A stretch of 64,000 nt of DNA from Salvelinus alpinus (lineage: Eukaryota > Chordata > Actinopteri > Salmoniformes > Salmonidae), in contig NC_092087.1 in NCBI RefSeq assembly GCF_045679555.1, forward strand, positions 84,078,629 through 84,142,628, in the 5' to 3' direction. Below the pieces are notes generated by a model. That model had not been told where the DNA came from. It did not search any database and was given only the letters and a program-made list of their open reading frames with translations. Positions 4,247 through 59,655 of this stretch are shown one piece after another; positions within the stretch are counted from its first letter, which is position 1; each line of letters begins with the position of its first letter. Both the position numbers and the translations under genes were made by a program.

Positions 4247-4660
4247 TACAGTACCAGTCACACCTACTCATTCAAGGGTTTGACTTCATGTTTACTATGT
4301 TCTGCATAGTAGAATAATAGTGAAGACATCAAAACTATGAAATAACACATATGGAGTCATGTAGTAACCAAAAAGGTGTTAAACAAATCAAAATATATTT
4401 TATATTTGAGATTCTTCAATGTAGCCACCCTTTGCCTTAATGACAGCTTTCCACACTCTTGGCAATCTCTCAACCAGCTTCATGAGGTAGTCACCTGGAA
4501 TGCATTTCAAATAACAGTTGTGCCTTCTAAAAGTGAATTTGTGGAATTTCTTTCCTTCTTAGTGTTTGAGCCAGTCAGTTGTGTTTTGACAAGATAGGGG
4601 TGGTATACAGAAGATAGCCCTATTTGGTAAAAGACCAAGTCCATATTACGGCATTAGAGT
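4247..4660 (+). mobile_element. Tc1-like transposon, 5' fragment
   Basis: Starts with a TIR-type sequence (tacagtaccagtca) and continues through cctactcattcaagggtttg, aatagtgaagacatcaaaac, gtagtcacctggaatgcatt and aaaagaccaagtccatatta. These match the Tc1 copy at 57446-58727 in the same order. The sequence jumps from just upstream of the transposase start straight into the 33-bp array, so the intervening coding part is deleted. Confidence 0.9.
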
Positions 4661-6098
4661 TACCTCTGCTGCAGAGGATAAGTTCATTAGAGTTACCTCT
4701 GATGCAGAGGATACGTTCATTCGAGTTACCTCTGCTGCAGAGGATAAGTTCATTAGAGTTACCTCTGCTGCAGAGGATAAGTTCCTTAGAGTTACCTCTG
4801 CTGCAGAGGATAAGTTCATTAGAGTTACCTCTGCTGCAGAGGATACGTTCATTAGAGTTACCTCTGCTGCAGAGGATAAGTTCATTAGAGTTACCTCTGC
4901 TGCAGAGGATACGTTCATTAGAGTTACCTCTGCTGCAGAGGATAAGTTCATTAGAGTTACCTCTGCTGCAGAGGATACGTTCATTAGAGTTACCTCTGCT
5001 GCAGAGGATACGTTCATTAGAGTTACCTCTGCTGCAGAGGATACGTTCATTAGAGTTACCTCTGCTGCAGAGGATACGTTCATTAGAGTTACCTCTGCTG
5101 CAGAGGATAAGTTCATTAGAGTTACCTCTGCTGCAGAGGATACGTTCATTAGAGTTACCTCTGCTGCAGAGGATAAGTTCATTAGAGTTACCTCTGCTGC
5201 AGAGGATACGTTCATTAGAGTTACCTCTGCTGCAGAGGATACGTTCATTAGAGTTACCTCTGATGCAGAGGATACGTTCATTAGAGTTACCTCTGCTGCA
5301 GAGGATACGTTCATTAGAGTTACCTCTGCTGCAGAGGATAAGTTCCTTAGAGTTACCTCTGCTGCAGAGGATAAGTTCATTAGAGTTACCTCTGCTGCAG
5401 AGGATACGTTCATTAGAGTTACCTCTGCTGCAGAGGATAAGTTCATTAGAGTTACCTCTGCTGCAGAGGATACGTTCATTAGAGTTACCTCTGCTGCAGA
5501 GGATAAGTTCATTAGAGTTACCTCTGCTGCAGAGGATACGTTCATTAGAGTTACCTCTGCTGCAGAGGATACGTTCATTAGAGTTACCTCTGCTGCAGAG
5601 GATACGTTCATTAGAGTTACCTCTGCTGCAGAGGATACGTTCATTAGAGTTACCTCTGCTGCAGAGGATAAGTTCATTAGAGTTACCTCTGCTGCAGAGG
5701 ATACGTTCATTAGAGTTACCTCTGCTGCAGAGGATAAGTTCATTAGAGTTACCTCTGCTGCAGAGGATACGTTCATTAGAGTTACCTCTGCTGCAGAGGA
5801 TACGTTCATTAGAGTTACCTCTGCTGCAGAGGATACGTTCATTAGAGTTACCTCTGCTGCAGAGGATAAGTTCATTAGAGTTACCTCTGCTGCAGAGGAT
5901 AAGTTCATTAGAGTTACCTCTGCTGCAGAGGATACGTTCATTAGAGTTACCTCTGCTGCAGAGGATACGTTCATTAGAGTTACCTCTGCTGCAGAGGATA
6001 CGTTCATTAGCGTTACCTCTGCTGCAGAGGATACGTTCATTAGAGTTACCTCTGCTGCAGAGGATACGTTCATTAGCGTTACCTCTGCTGCAGAGGTA
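4652..6098. repeat. 33-bp minisatellite made from Tc1 transposase coding sequence, about 43 copies
   Basis: The unit agagttacctctgctgcaga plus ggataagttcatt occurs once in the Tc1 transposase reading frame at 58028-58060, where it encodes [11 protein letters not shown] near the DNA-binding domain. Here it is repeated about 43 times. Units alternate between gataag and gatacg variants, and the order of variants itself repeats. The diagnostic gttccttag variant occurs at 4781 and 5342, exactly 561 bp (17 units) apart. Both strands stay open for about 490-500 codons because 33 is a multiple of three; this is not a gene. Confidence 0.97.
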
Positions 6099-6103
6099 AC
6101 GTC

Positions 6104-6546
6104 AGGTATTCTGCCACTGTGTCTTCTCTGTTTAGGGCCAAATAGCATTCTAGTTGCTCAGTGTTTTGATTAGTTCTTTCCAATGTGTCAAGTAATTATC
6201 TTTTTGTTTTCTCATGATTTGGTTGGGTCTAATTGTGTTGCTGTCCTGGGGCTCTTTGTGGTCTGTTTGTGTTTGTGAACAGAGCACCAGGACCAGCTTG
6301 CTTAGGGGACTCTTCTCTAAATTAATCTCTATGTAGATGATGGCTTTGTCATGGAAGATTTGGGAATGGCTTCCTTTAAGGTGGTTGTAGAATTTAACGT
6401 CTCTTTTCTGGATTTTGATAATTAGTGGGTATCGTCCTAATTCTGCTATGCATGCATTATTTGGTGTTTTACGTTGTACACGGACTATGTTTTGCTGAAT
6501 TCTGCATGCAGAGTCTCAATTTGGTGTTTGTCCCATTTTGTGAATT
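6104..6546 (-). mobile_element. AATTG-tailed LINE interior, minus strand
   Basis: Reverse complement matches 30360-30795 of the plus-strand LINE copy: gtcaggtattctgccactgt, tctcatgatttggttgggtc and ctaattctgctatgcatgca are all present in mirrored order. Together with 4214-4246 it brackets the Tc1-derived array. About 560 bp of LINE 3' sequence expected between the two pieces is missing. Confidence 0.85.
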
Positions 6547-6654
6547 CTTGGTTCTCTCTCCCTCTCTCTCCCTCTTGCTCGCGCTCAAAACTCCTTAAGG
6601 TGTCTGCGTACTAGGTTCGGTTTGCTCCTAGCAGAAGTCATCTAGGCAAAGTTA

Positions 6655-9907: not shown

Positions 9908-10445
9908 GTGTGTATTTGGACTTATAGTGAAGCTAACTGGCCTGGGTTAGTCTAGGGTGCTGTAGGTAGATATATACATATAGGCCTGCTGTGCTGTGTG
10001 TTATTAAAGATAGTCCAGGCTGCCTCAGGGTAAGTGACAGGATTCTGTGCTTCACTGCAAGACTATGGTCATGGAGGCAGCTAGCTATTAGCTACTGTAA
10101 CAGGCTATGGCCATGGACGTAGCTAGCTAGTATGCAACTACTGTAACACGCTATGACCATGGATATCGATAGCTAGTAACTACTGTATCAGGCTATGGCC
10201 ATGGAAGTAGGTAGTGCACCCATGCCCAGGACAGAGAGCCCATCCTGGGCCAGGATCTATCAGGAGGGAGCCTGACAGCCTGGAGCTCCAGGGCAATTCT
10301 CCACAGCTGGACACATGGGGCTGTATGGGGCCATCACTCCAGACCGGACAGCTGAACTGGATCCAACTGGATCAGACTTGTTCAAATGTGAGTTGGCATA
10401 GGGGGGACGTGGTTATAAAGGGGACACTGGAGGGTGTGAGAGGTA

Positions 10446-13394: not shown

Positions 13395-14060
13395 CTCACT
13401 CCGCTTCACTGCAAGACTATGGTCATGGAGATATATAGCTAGCTGGTAGCCTAGCTTCTATAACAGGCTATGGCCATAGAGGTAGGTATTTAGTAGCTAC
13501 TGTAACAGGCTATGGCCATGGATGTCGGTAGCTAGTAGCTACTGTAACAGGCTGTGGCCATGGATGTCGGTAGCTAGTAGCTACTGTAACAGACTATGGC
13601 CATGGAAGTAGCTAGCTAGTAGCTACTGTAACAGGCTATGGCCATGGATGTCGGTAGCTAGTAGCTACTGTAACAGGCTGTGGCCATGGATGTCGGTAGC
13701 TAGTAGCTACTGTAACAGACTATGGCCATCGATATAGGTAGCTAGTTGCTACTGTAACAGGCTATGGCCATGGAAGTAGCTAGCTAGTAGCTACTGTAAC
13801 AGGCTATGGCCATGGATGTCGGTAGCTAGTAGCTACTGTAACAGGCTATGGCCATGGATATAGGTAGCTAGTAGCTACTGTAACAGACTATGGCCATGGA
13901 AGTAGCTAGCTAGTAGCTACTGTAACAGACTATGGCCACGGATGTAGGCAGCTAGTTGCTACTGTAACAGGCTATGGCCATGGATATAGGTAGCTAGTTG
14001 CTACTGTAATAGGCTATGGCCACGGACGTAGCTAGCTAGTAGCTACTGTATAAGGCTAGC
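13395..14060. repeat. 42-bp minisatellite, about 15 copies
   Basis: The unit tagctactgtaacaggctat plus ggccatggatgtcggtagctag repeats every 42 bp (for example 13501 and 13543), with variants at the gtcgg/atagg/agtag position. The same motif ends duplication copy A (about 10060-10215) with only three to four units. Confidence 0.93.
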
Positions 14061-14489: not shown

Positions 14490-14835
14490 TTACAGGCTAT
14501 GACCACGGACATAGCTAGCAAGTAACTACTGTAACAGGCTATGGCCATGGATGTACTGTAGGTAGCTAGTAGCTCCTATTGAAGGCTAGAAGGCTAGGAC
14601 TAGGAACCCATGAAGGTAGCTAGCTGGCTATAAGGCTAAAGGTAGCTAATGTAGCAGGCTAGGGCCATGGACATAGCTAGCAGGGTAAGGTTAAAGATAA
14701 CTACTGTATAAGGCTAGGGCGATGGACATAGCTAGCAAGCTTAGGCTAAAGTTAGCAACTGTAGCAGGCTAGGGCCATGGATATAAAGTGGCTAGCTGGC
14801 TATAAGGCTAAAGGTACCTATATGCTTAGAAAGTG
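14490..14835. repeat. Diverged continuation of the 42-bp minisatellite
   Basis: gctagggccatggacatagc units recur at irregular spacing with ggctaaaggtagc insertions. Confidence 0.7.
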
Positions 14836-18297: not shown

Positions 18298-19287
<990 letters not shown>

Positions 19288-24013: not shown

Positions 24014-24581
24014 TGTCATGTTTTTGATTATCATGTCTTGTCCCTGTGCTTCCCTTCTATTCGTTTCCCTCTGCTGGTCTTATTAGGTTCTTTCCCTCTT
24101 TCTGTCCCTCTCTCTCCCCCTCCCTCTCTCCCTCTCTCGCTCTCTCTCTCTATCGTTCCGTTCCTGCTCCCAGCTGTTCCTCATTCTCCTAACTACCTCA
24201 TTTACTCTTTCACACCTGTCCCCTATTTTGCCCTCTGATTAGAGTCCCTATTTCTCCCTCTGTTTTCCGCTTCTGTCCTTGTCGGATCCTTGTTTGATGT
24301 TTGCTGTTCTGTGTCCTTGTTCCGCCCTGTCGTGTTTTTGCCTTCTTCAGATGCTGCGTGTGAGCAGGTGTCTATGTCAGCTACGGCCTGTGCCTTCCCG
24401 AAGCGACCTGCAGTCTGTGGTCGCGTCTCCAGTCGTTCCTCTCTACTGACGAGAGGATTTCAGTTTTCCTGTTTTGGATTTACCTAAGATAATATCCAGG
24501 AGTATCGTTTTTTGTTTAAGACTGGAATAAAGACTCTGTTTCTATTAAGTCGCTTTTGGGTCCTCATTCACCTGCATAACA
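24014..24581 (+). mobile_element. Solo LTR of the Ty3/gypsy chromovirus family
   Basis: 568 bp starting tgtcatg and ending cataaca. It is colinear with the LTRs at 42981-43537 and 47276-47830, with a small insertion and scattered substitutions. The flanking 5-bp duplication gagag (24009-24013 and 24582-24586) shows integration into the GA array followed by LTR-LTR recombination. Confidence 0.93.
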
Positions 24582-25187
<606 letters not shown>

Positions 25188-30003: not shown

Positions 30004-31413
30004 ACCATCAAACCTGGGCCCTGACAGTAAATCTCAGTAAGACCAAAATAATGGTGTTCCAAAAAAGGTCCAGTCGCCAGGACCACAAATTCCATCTAGA
30101 CACCGTTGCCCTAGAGCACACAAAAAACTATACATACCTCGGCCTAAACATCAGCACCACAGGTAGCTTCCACAGAGCTGTGAACGATCTGAGAGACAAG
30201 GCAAGAAGGGCATTCTATGCCATCAAAAGGAACATAAATTTCAACATACCAATTAGGATCTGGCTAAAAATACTTGAATCAGTCATAGAGCCCATTGCCC
30301 TTTATGGTTGTGAGGTCTGGGGTCCGCTCACCAACCAAGATTTCACAAAATGGGACAAACACCAAATTGAGACTCTGCATGCAGAATTCTGCAAAAATAT
30401 CCTCCGTGTACAACGTAGAACACCAAATAATGCATGCAGAGCAGAATTAGGCCGATACCCACTAATTATCAAAATCCAGAAAAGAGCCGTTAAATTCTAC
30501 AACCACCTAAAAGGAAGCGATTCCCAAACCTTCCATAACAAAGCCATCACCTACAGAGAGATGAACCTGGAGAAGAGTCCCCTAAGCAAGCTGGTCCTAG
30601 GGCTCTGTTCACAAACACAAACACACCCCACAGAGCCCCAGGACAACAGCACAATTAGACCCAACCAAATCATGAGAAAACAAAAAGATAATTACTTGAC
30701 ACATTGGAAAGAATTAACAAAAAAACAGAGCAAACTAGAATGCTATTTGGCCCTAAACAGAGAGTACACAGTGGCAGAATACCTGACCACTGTGACTGAC
30801 CCAAACTTAAGGAAAGCTTTGACTATGTACAGACTCAGTGAGCATAGCCTTGCTATTGAGAAAGGCCGCCGTAGGCAGACATGGCTCTCAAGAGAAGACA
30901 GGCTATGTGCTCACTGCCCACAAAATGAGGTGGAAACTGAGCTGCACTTCCTAACCTCCTGCCCAATGTATGATCATATTAGAGAGACATATTTCCCTCA
31001 GATTACACAGATCCACAAAGAATTTGAAAACAAATCCAATTTTGATAAACTCCCATATCTACTGGGTGAAATTCCACAGTGTGCCATCACAGCAGCAAGA
31101 TTTGTGACCTGTTGCCACAAGAAAAGGGCAACCAGTGAAGAACAAACACCATTGTAAATACAACCCATATTTATGCTTATTTATTTTAACTTGTGTGCTT
31201 TAACCATTTGTACATTGTTACAACACTGTATATATATAATATGACATTTGTAATGTCTTTCTTGTTTTGAAACTTCTGTATGTGTAATGTTTACTGTTAA
31301 TTTGTATTGTTTATTTCACTTTTGTGTATTATCTACCTCACTTGCTTTGGCAATGTTAACACATGTTTCCCATGCCAATAAAGCCCCTTGAATTGAATTG
31401 AATTGAATTGAAT

Positions 31414-42159: not shown

Positions 42160-42935
42160 GCCATTTGTCACTATAGAATTGAATAAAAAATGTGTCACTG
42201 TGGAATCTAGTACAACACTTGTCACTATAGATTTATATAAAACTTTTGTCACTATAGAATCTAATAGAACATGTGTCACTATAAAATTATATAGAACTTA
42301 ATAGAACTGTTTTAATTGAATAGAACTTCATAATTGAATCGAGTTGAATAGAACTGTACAATTGAATAGAACTGTATAATTGAATAGAACTGTATAATTG
42401 AATAGACCCTTATAATTGAATAGAACTGTTAAATTGAAAGAACAGTATAATTGAATAGAGTTGAATGGAATTGTTGAATTGAATAGAACAGTATAATTGA
42501 ATAGTGTGGAATAGAACTATAGAATTGAATAGAACTGTAGAGCTGAATAGAACAGTATTATTTAATATAGTTCAATAGAAGTGTAGAATTGAATAGAACT
42601 GCTGAATTGAATAGTATAATTGAATAGTGTGGAATAGAACTATATAATTGAATATAACTGTTGAACTGAATATAACAGTATTATTTAATATAGTTCAATA
42701 GAAGTGTAGAATTGAATAAAACTCGAATAATAAAGTAAACTTGAATAGAGTTGAATAGAACTGTATAATTGAATAGAGTTGAATAGAACTGTATAATTGA
42801 ATAGAGTTGAATAGAACTGTATAATTGAATAGAGTTGAATAGAACTGTATAATTGAATAGAGTTGAATAGAACTGTACAATTGAATATAATTGCATAATT
42901 GAATATAACTCTATAATTGAATACTTTGAGTCAAT
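42160..42935. repeat. AATTGAATAGAAC-type tandem array downstream of sulfotransferase
   Basis: The first units contain tgtcactatagaatctaata (42170-42290). Later units are aattgaatagaactgtata, about 18-28 bp, more than 30 copies. The first unit overlaps the stop codon of the sulfotransferase (ctgtcactatag at 42008-42019). Confidence 0.93.
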
Positions 42936-42980: not shown

Positions 42981-43537
42981 TGTCATGTTTTGTCATTGAT
43001 CATCATGTCTTGTCCCTGTGCTTCCCTCTGCTGGTCTTATTAGGTTCTTTCCCTCTTTCTATCCCTCTCTCTCCCCCTCCCTCTTTCCCTCTCTCGCTCT
43101 CTCTCTCTATCGTTCCGTTCCTGCTCCCAGCTGTTTCTCATTCTCCTAACGACCTCATTTACTCTTTCACACCTGTCCCCTATTTTGCCCTCTGATTAGA
43201 GTCCCTATTTCGCCCTCTGTTTTCCGCTTCTGTCCTTGTCGGATTCTTGTTTGATGTTTGCTGTTCTGTGTCCTTGTTCCGCCCTGTCGTGTTTTTGCCT
43301 TCTTCAGATGCTGCGTGTGAGCAGGTGTCTATGTCAGCTACGGCCTGTGCCTTCCTGAAGCGACCTGCAGTCTGTGGTCGCGTCTCCAGTCGTTCCTCTC
43401 TACTGACGAGAGGATTTCAGTTTCCTGTTTTGGATTTACCTTTGATAATATCCAGGAGAATCATTGTTTGTTTAATACTGGAATAAAGACTCTGTTTCTA
43501 TTACGTCGCTTTTGGGTCCTCATTCACCAGCATAACA
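42981..43537 (+). repeat. 5' LTR of gypsy chromovirus (557 bp)
   Basis: TG...CA termini, AATAAA near 43484, CT-rich first third. A solo relative lies at 24014-24581. Confidence 0.95.
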
Positions 43538-47275: not shown

Positions 47276-47830
47276 TGTCATGTTTTGTCATTGATCATCA
47301 TGTCTTGTCCCTGTGCTTCCCTCTGCTGGTCTTATTAGGTTCTTTCCCTCTTTCTATCCCTCTCTCTCCCCCTCCCTCTTTCCCTCTCTCGCTCTCTCTC
47401 TCTATCGTTCCGTTCCTGCTCCCAGCTGTTTCTCATTCTCCTAACGACCTCATTTACTCTTTCACACCTGTCCCCTATTTTGCCCTCTGATTAGAGTCCC
47501 TATTTCTCCCTCTGTTTTCCGCTTCTGTCCTTGTCGGATTCTTGTTTGATGTTTGCTGTTCTGTGTCCTTGTTCCGCCCTGTCGTGTTTTTGCCTTCTTC
47601 AGATGCTGCGTGTGAGCAGGTGTCTATGTCAGCTACGGCCTGTGCCTTCCTGAAGCGACCTGCAGTCTGTGGTCGCGTCTCCAGTCGTTCCTCTCTACTG
47701 ACGAGAGGATTTCAGTTTCCTGTTTTGGATTTACCTTTGATAATATCCAGGAGAATCATTGTTTGTTTAATACTGGAATAAAGACTGTTTCTATTACGTC
47801 GCTTTTGGGTCCTCATTCACCAGCATAACA
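47276..47830 (+). repeat. 3' LTR of gypsy chromovirus (555 bp)
   Basis: Nearly identical to the 5' LTR; it lacks one CT in gactctgttt. Confidence 0.95.
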
Positions 47831-57428: not shown

Positions 57429-57445
57429 CTAAAGGTTTTATAACA

Positions 57446-58727
57446 CCTACTCATTCAAGGGTTTTTCTTTATTTTTACTATTTTCTACATTGTAGAATAA
57501 TAGTGAAGACATCAAAACTATAAAATAACATATATGGAATCATGTAGTAACCAAAAAAGTGTTAAACAAATAAAAATATATGTTATATTTCAGATTCTTC
57601 AAATAGCCACCCTTTGCCTTGGTGACAGCTTAGGATACTCTTGGCATTCTCTCAACCAGCTTCATGAGGTAGTCACCTGGAATGCATTTCAATTAGCAGG
57701 TGTGCCTACTTAAAAGTTAATTTGTGGAATTTCGTTCCTTCTTAATGCGTTTGAGCCAGTGTTAGGAAGTGTCAGTTGTGTTGTGACAAGGTAGTGGGGG
57801 TATACAGAAGATAGCCCTATTTGGTAAAAGACCAAGTCCATATTATGGAAAGAACAGCTCAAATAAGCAAAGAGAAATGACAGTCCATCATTACTTTAAG
57901 ACATGAAGGTCAGTCAATCCAGAAAATGTCAAGAACTTTGAAAGTTTCTTCAAGTGCAGTCGCAAAAACCATCAAGTGCTATGATGAAACTGGCTCTCAT
58001 GAGGACCGCCACAGGAATGTAAGACCCAGAGTTACCTCTGCTGCAGAGGATAAGTTCATTAGAGTAACCAGCCTCAGAAATTGCAGCCCAAATAAATGCT
58101 TCACAGAGTTCAAGTAAAAGACACATCTCAACATCAACTGTTCAGAGGAGACTGTGTGAATCAGGCCTTCATGGTCGAATTTCTGCAAAGAAACCACTAC
58201 TAAAGGACACCAATAAGAAGAAGAGACTTGCTTGGTTCAAGAAACACGAGCAATGGACATTAGACCGTTGGAAATTTGTCCTTTTGTCTGGAGTCCAAAT
58301 TGGAGATTTTTGGTTCCAACCGCCGTGTCTTTGTGAGACGCAGTGTGGGTGAATGGATGATCTCCACATGTGTATTTCCCACTGTGAAGCATGGAGGAGG
58401 AGGTGTTATGGTGTGGGGGTGCTTTGCTGGTGACACTGCCTGTGATTTATTTAGAATTCAAGGCATACTTAACCAGCATGGCTACCACAGCATTCTGCAG
58501 CGATACGCCATCCCATCTGATTTGGGCTTAGTGGGACTATCATTTGTTTTTCAACAGGCCAATGGCCCAACACACCTCCAGGCTGTGTAAGGACTATTTT
58601 ACCAAGAAGGAGAGTGATGGAGTGCTGCATCAGATGACCTGGCCTCCACAATCCCCCGACCTCAACCATGGTTTGGGATGAGTTGGACCGCAGAGTGAAG
58701 GAAAAGCAGCCAACAAGTGCTCAATTT
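57446..58727 (+). mobile_element. Tc1-like transposon, ends truncated, broken transposase
   Basis: Starts cacctactcattcaagggtt and ends at ccaacaagtgctcaat; the outer TIRs are lost. Transposase remnants: 57926-58117 (KVSSSAVAKTIKCYDETG, then the [11 protein letters not shown] block that seeded the array at 4652-6098), further pieces to 58350 (FVRRSVGEWMIS), VKHGGGGVMVWGCFAG at 58384-58431, and VFQQANGPTHLQ at 58546-58581, where the second catalytic Asp is replaced. WDELDRRVKEKQPTS lies at 58675-58720. Frameshifts separate these. Confidence 0.9.
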
Positions 58728-59444: not shown

Positions 59445-59655
59445 TTCAATACCGACTGAGTCTATAGAGTTAAATAGAACTGTAGAATTGAAAAGAACTG
59501 CAGAATTGAATAGCATTGTAGAATTGAATAGAACAGTAGAATTGATTAGCACTGTAGAATTGAATAGAACTGTATAATTGAATAGCACTGTAGAATTGAA
59601 TAGAACTGTAGAATTGAATAGAACTGTAGAATTGAATAGAGTTGAATAGAACAAA
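59445..59655. repeat. AATTGAATAGAACTGTAG tandem array, about 10 copies
   Basis: The 18-bp unit gaattgaatagaactgta closely resembles the array downstream of the sulfotransferase (42160-42935). Confidence 0.93.

Follow-up and report, generated by a model that had tools for sequence, protein, structure and literature searches.

A 33-bp minisatellite formed from Tc1 transposase coding sequence in Salvelinus alpinus, and sister arrays in other Tc1 copies of the same genome

The window, a stretch of 64,000 nucleotides of Salvelinus alpinus contig NC_092087.1 (positions 84,078,629 to 84,142,628 of the forward strand, RefSeq assembly GCF_045679555.1), carries near its left end a tandem array at 4652-6096 on the + strand, for which Tandem Repeats Finder reports a period of 33, 43.8 copies, 97% matches, 0% indels and a score of 2729. 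Cut in phase from 4656, the array consists of 43 whole 33-bp units and a 44th that keeps 22 letters, and the original prediction of about 43 units at 4652-6098 was thus correct as to the array and its units, with the end placed two letters too far. Head-to-tail units of about 10-100 bp define a minisatellite, and the period of 33 and 43.8 copies place the array in that class; satellite DNA would require arrays extending far over some kilobases, and the longest of the eight loci of the 33/30-bp kind described below reaches 1.4 kb. The 43 units are of six types, 13 of the units being identical to the native Tc1 unit and 24 differing from it by C at position 26 alone.

To the left of the array lies the left part of a Tc1 transposon (4247-4653, + strand), comprising the TA target, CAGT tip, 5' inverted repeat and leader, and ending at a mutated start codon that reads ACGGCA instead of ATGGCA. 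Its TA target and CAGT-type inverted repeat tip (4247-4252) agree with those of Tc1/mariner elements as given in Table 1 of PMC2198921, and in alignment the flank at 4260-4651 matches a second Tc1 copy in the window, at 57443-57848, with 87.7% identity over 407 columns. Both the derivation of the minisatellite from Tc1 transposase coding sequence and the presence of the proper 5' part of the transposon at its left, as originally proposed, were borne out. At the left junction, Tc1 GGCA is joined to array CATTAGAG, and in our own reading the two letters CA (4652-4653, + strand) are a microhomology. The letters ahead of the first AGAG are CATT, the same as at the boundaries inside the array; among 60 native copies, the seven letters before AGAG are AAGACCC in 44 and AAGATCC in six. 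Since CAAGAACA stands directly after ATGG in 51 of the 79 native start regions found, GGCA and CATTAG have CA in common; the CA is possibly Tc1's own, and only TT is therefore strictly diagnostic of an internal boundary at the left edge. The simplest reading of the left junction would be a deletion with 2-bp microhomology, most likely of roughly 175 bp and later than at least the first duplication.

The right flank of the array is not Tc1, and the array has a natural Tc1 edge on neither side. A perfect hairpin with 12-bp arms (6077-6101, + strand, 100% complementary), formed by the last unit and its 3' edge, is completed by the right-edge letters GAGG-TAACG-TCAGG. The letters TAACG (6097-6101) are those expected if the left arm of the same unit had been copied by fold-back; a pair of neighbouring substitutions at positions 23-24 would produce them equally well. 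Among the loci compared, the perfect hairpin is present only in those covering the window itself. Improvement of the hairpin as a force driving change in the units was considered and dropped, because A26C alone leaves the folded energy unchanged, and the perfect hairpin of the last unit is accordingly kept only as a junction event. Next, starting with a shared G, comes a fragment on the - strand (6101-6553) that is broken at the array junction and matches 30333-30787 with 92.3% identity over 455 columns; in that second copy an ORF at 30303-31154 crosses the junction point. The fragment is called retrotransposon-like from its look, with Pfam giving a weak zf-RVT match below cut-off for the fragment copy.

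The second Tc1 copy of the window (57443-58724, + strand) is 3'-truncated and contains the unit once, in its natural context at 58028-58060, as had been stated. In this context (58028-58069, + strand) AGAGTTACC is followed by 24 bp and then by AGAGTAACC, which together form a 9-bp direct repeat exactly 33 bp apart, with one mismatch in the copy at 58028. Of 60 native copies, 25 have a perfect second repeat and a further 25 have one with a single mismatch. The native 33-bp stretch also contains a short hairpin, CCTCTGC T GCAGAGG. The region 57881-58114 matches PF00292 PAX (25.4 bits, cut-off 22), which corresponds to the paired-like DNA-binding domain of a Tc1/mariner transposase; HTH_SB in the same copy scores 17.8 bits, below its cut-off of 43. 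This copy had been put forward as donor of the array. However, exact matches to the native unit occur 3,832 times in the genome (2.37 Gb), about 33 of them being array units, so that the copy at 58028 is one among many and was rejected as a demonstrable donor. Searches of viral contigs, prokaryote contigs, plasmids and phages gave no result.

The window is rich in minisatellites. Three arrays (10063-10214, 13452-14058 and 14631-14785) have in common a related motif around GGCCATGGA, which suggests spread or a common origin, and two TAGAATTGAATAGAACTG-type arrays lie 17 kb apart at 42300-42923 and 59465-59640, the latter starting some 740 bp past the end of the Tc1 copy at 57443-58724. A stretch of 557 bp recurs 4.3 kb away with 99.5% identity (42981-43537 and 47276-47830) and once more, at 96.9% identity, at 24065-24583, and degenerate TTAGGG repeats at 18406-18524 resemble an old internal telomere-like stretch. 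In the whole units of the Tc1-derived array (4656-6074) all five variable sites are A/C changes, compared with nine of 76 across ten further arrays in the window (Fisher p 7.8e-5 in a post hoc comparison), and one of the five is a common variant in other Tc1 copies. The commonest of the five variants, A26/C26, has 478 matches in the genome, 24 of them in the window array and one in L009; as it also occurs at about 450 other places, A/C-only variation as a sign of oxidative damage was set aside as an oddity.

The unit-to-unit junction, used as a genome-wide search pattern with up to three mismatches, gave 85 matches at 13 loci. Eight of these carry two or more units: the window (44 units), L009 (14), L010 (7), L012 (4), L011 and L014 (3 each), L029 (2), and L013, which has 12 units of 30 bp each. 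Unit number thus differs from locus to locus in one genome. At each of the other five loci (L030-L034) a single unit adjoins a deletion or an altered left edge. Natural Tc1 letters stand directly at both edges of L009, L010, L011 and L014, although in L009 and L010 only a short natural stretch is retained at the left; L029 has natural Tc1 at the left and is altered at the right after its second unit, L013 has natural Tc1 at the right with the left side deleted, and L012 has it at the right only. A 33-bp array lying apart from any Tc1 and older than the Tc1 family, named in the original prediction as the finding that would speak against it, was not encountered, as each of the eight 33/30-bp arrays is flanked by Tc1 on one side or both. 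A 10-copy array with a period of 25 bp (L125), which has a native match of 2 bp only, also occupies this Tc1 spot. Its junction pattern gave 11 matches genome-wide at three loci, namely L125 with ten copies, L139 with two and L140 with one.

In the Haber-Louis model, a minisatellite is born by slippage or unequal exchange between repeats of 5-10 bp that flank the future unit (PMC6947457). The unit, with its native 9-bp repeat at a lag of 33, has such a repeat at the exact period. Over about 1.3 kb of one native Tc1 copy, only AGAGTTACC (at 0) and GTGTG (at +341) are exact matches of at least 5 bp at lag 33, and lag 30 likewise has two, at -147 (CAGTC) and at +156. A sample of 99 native copies from one chromosome, picked for holding the exact unit, yielded 53 tandem hits with a period of at least 12, of which 16 matched the reference copy; after removal of one entry outside Tc1 and another at the far end of Tc1, and with a near-identical pair counted once, 13 entries were tested. 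Two of these 13 mapped events fall on a native repeat of at least 5 bp, and they are also the only two with a period of at least 30: an 8-copy 33-bp array at +341 (L079), the sole 33-bp array of the sample, and a 30-bp duplication at -147 on the native CAGTC repeat (L071). The remaining 11 events (periods 12-28), the 25-bp array of L125 among them, are without a native repeat of that length.

Both of these further sites were also searched for genome-wide. The -147 junction pattern gave 12 matches at five loci, with natural edges on both sides in L135, L136 and L137; L135 and L136 look like one birth copied locally. The +341 pattern gave 67 matches in 23 clusters, 12 of which have at least two junctions, and all four of the loci inspected (L079, L141, L142, L143) lie within Tc1 and have natural edges on both sides; two singles with three mismatches may be native sequence. 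The +341 site is a second, busier site of 33-bp minisatellites in the Tc1 transposase gene, bounded by GTGTGGT and GTGTGAT. A control 33-bp interval with no native repeat had one match in the genome, a deletion without an array, as against the 85 at the unit site. Short native repeats fit the 33-bp and 30-bp births, and do not fit every birth. The +341 site has the shorter repeat and more loci than the unit site, so that repeat length alone does not set the rate, and hairpins or the purine-rich stretch at +341 perhaps also matter. The genome-wide patterns covered chosen sites only, and silence of other Tc1 sites is not implied.

Considering these findings together, a scenario in which amplification from the native 9-bp repeats came first, and losses of flanking sequence followed, is judged the probable history of the array. 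The starting point would be a Tc1 copy whose transposase gene has a 33-bp stretch bounded by the native 9-bp repeat AGAGTTACC and holding a hairpin. Slippage or short-homology repair between the two 9-bp repeats would duplicate the 33 bp inside Tc1, a first step that is visible at sister loci as natural-edged arrays of two to three units and is presumed for the window. Growth of the array would then come from repeated slippage, or from unequal exchange, involving whole units, the last large step in the window being a duplication of 17 units whose pattern can be read directly and whose mechanism is conjectural. The surroundings in which the window array was born no longer exist on its right side, a point that counts against the scenario. 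Left Tc1 sequence would have been lost by the deletion with 2-bp microhomology, and a break inside the last unit would have led to joining with the retrotransposon-like fragment, the five letters between them suggesting a fold-back route of repair. Like births would have occurred at other Tc1 copies and at the two further Tc1 sites that have native direct repeats. The array is without evident function in this account, and may be a by-product of repeat-rich transposon sequence.

The original prediction had placed the events in another order, from a single unit, through deletion of the preceding coding sequence, to amplification, and the idea that the deletion came first and set off or favoured amplification is the alternative that survives best, although we consider it unlikely. 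On the right side of the array, the break falls after position 22, yet every whole unit includes the positions past it, 23-33, and amplification therefore preceded loss of the right part of Tc1. On the left, the CATT|AGAG edge is like an internal boundary, although with the qualification, given above, that TT is its strictly diagnostic part. A comparison of left flanks, in which loss was taken as less than 70% identity of the left 60 bp to native Tc1, covered the eight loci together with L125 and L139 of the 25-bp kind. The left 60 bp are lost in five of these ten arrays (the window, L009, L012, L013 and L125) and in four of 97 native copies (Fisher p 2.5e-4), with L010 borderline at 72% identity. 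This count favours the deletion-first order, as do L125 and L013, which have a deleted left edge together with Tc1 at the right, and the short left stretches of L009 and L010; these four loci would allow deletion ahead of growth. Against it, arrays of two to three units (L011, L014, L029 and L139) keep the left flank in four of four cases, three loci (L030, L031 and L034) that are deleted as far as the unit carry it just once and have no array, and arrays of seven to eight units at the -147 and +341 sites have unbroken flanks (L135, L141, L079). Deletion before amplification is thus not a general rule. At the unit site, flank loss goes with array size: either the left edge of a large array is prone to breakage, or loss of sequence on the left promotes growth, in which case the deletion-first idea would be partly restored. 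Because of the flank-loss count, our estimate for that idea was raised from very improbable to unlikely, and that for the amplification-first reading, still the best one, was lowered from highly probable to probable.

The latest large growth step can be traced in the order of unit types. Units 2-18 make up a higher-order block of 17 units and 561 bp (block A, 4689-5249, + strand), and units 19-35 (block B, 5250-5810, + strand) repeat the same order of unit types save one, 16 of the 17 types being equal. An equally long block arose in none of 2000 shuffles and in four of 5000 first-order simulations. This points to a duplication of 17 units, 561 bp, as the latest large growth step, by a mechanism that would resemble the exchanges proposed above. 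The close agreement of the two blocks would also be expected of an assembly artefact, with two haplotypes placed end to end or the units miscounted; this appears quite unlikely, given that two substitutions separate unit 3 from unit 20, and the array itself is independent of the block.

A single array-bearing Tc1 copy that transposed and seeded all 33-bp arrays would explain why the canonical unit is common to L009, L010 and the window. The relationships of the arrays were examined in a quick right-flank tree of 107 rows, made up of eight arrays (seven sister loci and L125, the window excluded) and 99 native copies, in which the eight arrays occupy eight separate places. Starred branches force only two origins, which is compatible with a single seed to a degree, and 85 of the 103 inner branches are unresolved; the claim is for this reason one of several births and not of a number. 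Private unit forms speak against a common seed, with TTAACT in all three units of L014, TTTATT in three of the four units of L012 and the 30-bp form shared by all 12 units of L013, and L011 and L014 belong to another Tc1 subfamily, in which the second repeat is AGAGTTAAC. Seeding from one copy is thus regarded as very unlikely, and the arrays at the unit site suggest several births. That the array is retained because it serves some function, for example as a repetitive segment of a protein, is scarcely credible and was rejected. The period of 33 bp is divisible by three and translation of the array stays open over 473 residues, but the Tc1 start codon is now ACG, the deletion junction shifts the frame in our own reading, all five variable sites alter the residue or its codon class, and the Hepsin-SRCR Pfam score does not come from any stretch passing alone. 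That score, 51.7 bits for the translation of 4656-6074 (P0001), looks like an artefact of repetition.

The birth of the array resembles the Haber-Louis model (PMC6947457) in having a native 9-bp repeat at the exact period, and in that duplication comes first and growth between longer units later. It departs from the model as described there in that the starting sequence is a transposon present in thousands of near-identical copies, so that births repeat, and in that the rule is broken by L125, with its 25-bp period at the same position, and by most events of short period in the sample. Minisatellites are known from Alu, the B1 SINE and LTR elements, as tabulated in PMC6947457, and like these the array derives from the interior of a mobile element, whereas its source is the coding sequence of a DNA transposon; the term 'Tc1' does not appear in the text of PMC6947457. 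Satellites derived from DNA transposons include Tetris (PMC4079207) and DINE-TR1 (PMC6947457), which likewise comprise tandem repeats beginning within a DNA transposon; as described in these sources they give rise to satellite DNA, while the arrays studied here are short, and no two Tc1 copies need have the same one. DTSsa1 and other salmonid Tc1 families that have long inverted repeats have been described (PMC2198921), and the TA target, CAGT tip, inverted repeats of about 200 bp and many internally deleted copies are alike in both; the window copy is likened to this type, and the text of that paper contains neither 'tandem' nor 'minisatellite'. At the right edge, the short inverted copy beside a hairpin, joined with 0-5 bp of microhomology, is similar to the fold-back templated insertions at breaks reported in yeast (PMC11724301), with the difference that here there is a single old junction, and the route is suggested by five letters. 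A literature search, mostly of titles and the beginnings of abstracts, brought up no recognised account of tandem arrays of salmonid Tc1 transposase sequence.

In summary, the process is of a known kind, and the natural replicates are unusually good. Minisatellite birth usually has to be guessed from one finished array; here one genome offers several thousand near-identical starts, from which arrays have been born again and again at the same places, with two to 44 units, and several arrays still lie in their native surroundings, so that the short-repeat slippage model can be tested by counting. So far the counts support the model in the 33- and 30-bp births, show clear exceptions such as the 25-bp array, and unexpectedly tie large arrays to a missing left flank. 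One tentative extension, which we hold to be possible but on balance doubtful, is that the arrays and the internal deletions adjacent to them are two outcomes of the refilling of a gap from a sister copy after Tc1 excision, in which the filling strand could slip at native short repeats or hairpins, forward to give a deletion and backward to give a duplication. If true, this would account for the association of large arrays at the unit with left-flank loss. Minisatellites would then be produced by Tc1 transposition itself, at a small number of hot spots within the transposon's gene, and any genome carrying Tc1 in thousands of copies would amount to an ongoing experiment on how minisatellites are born.
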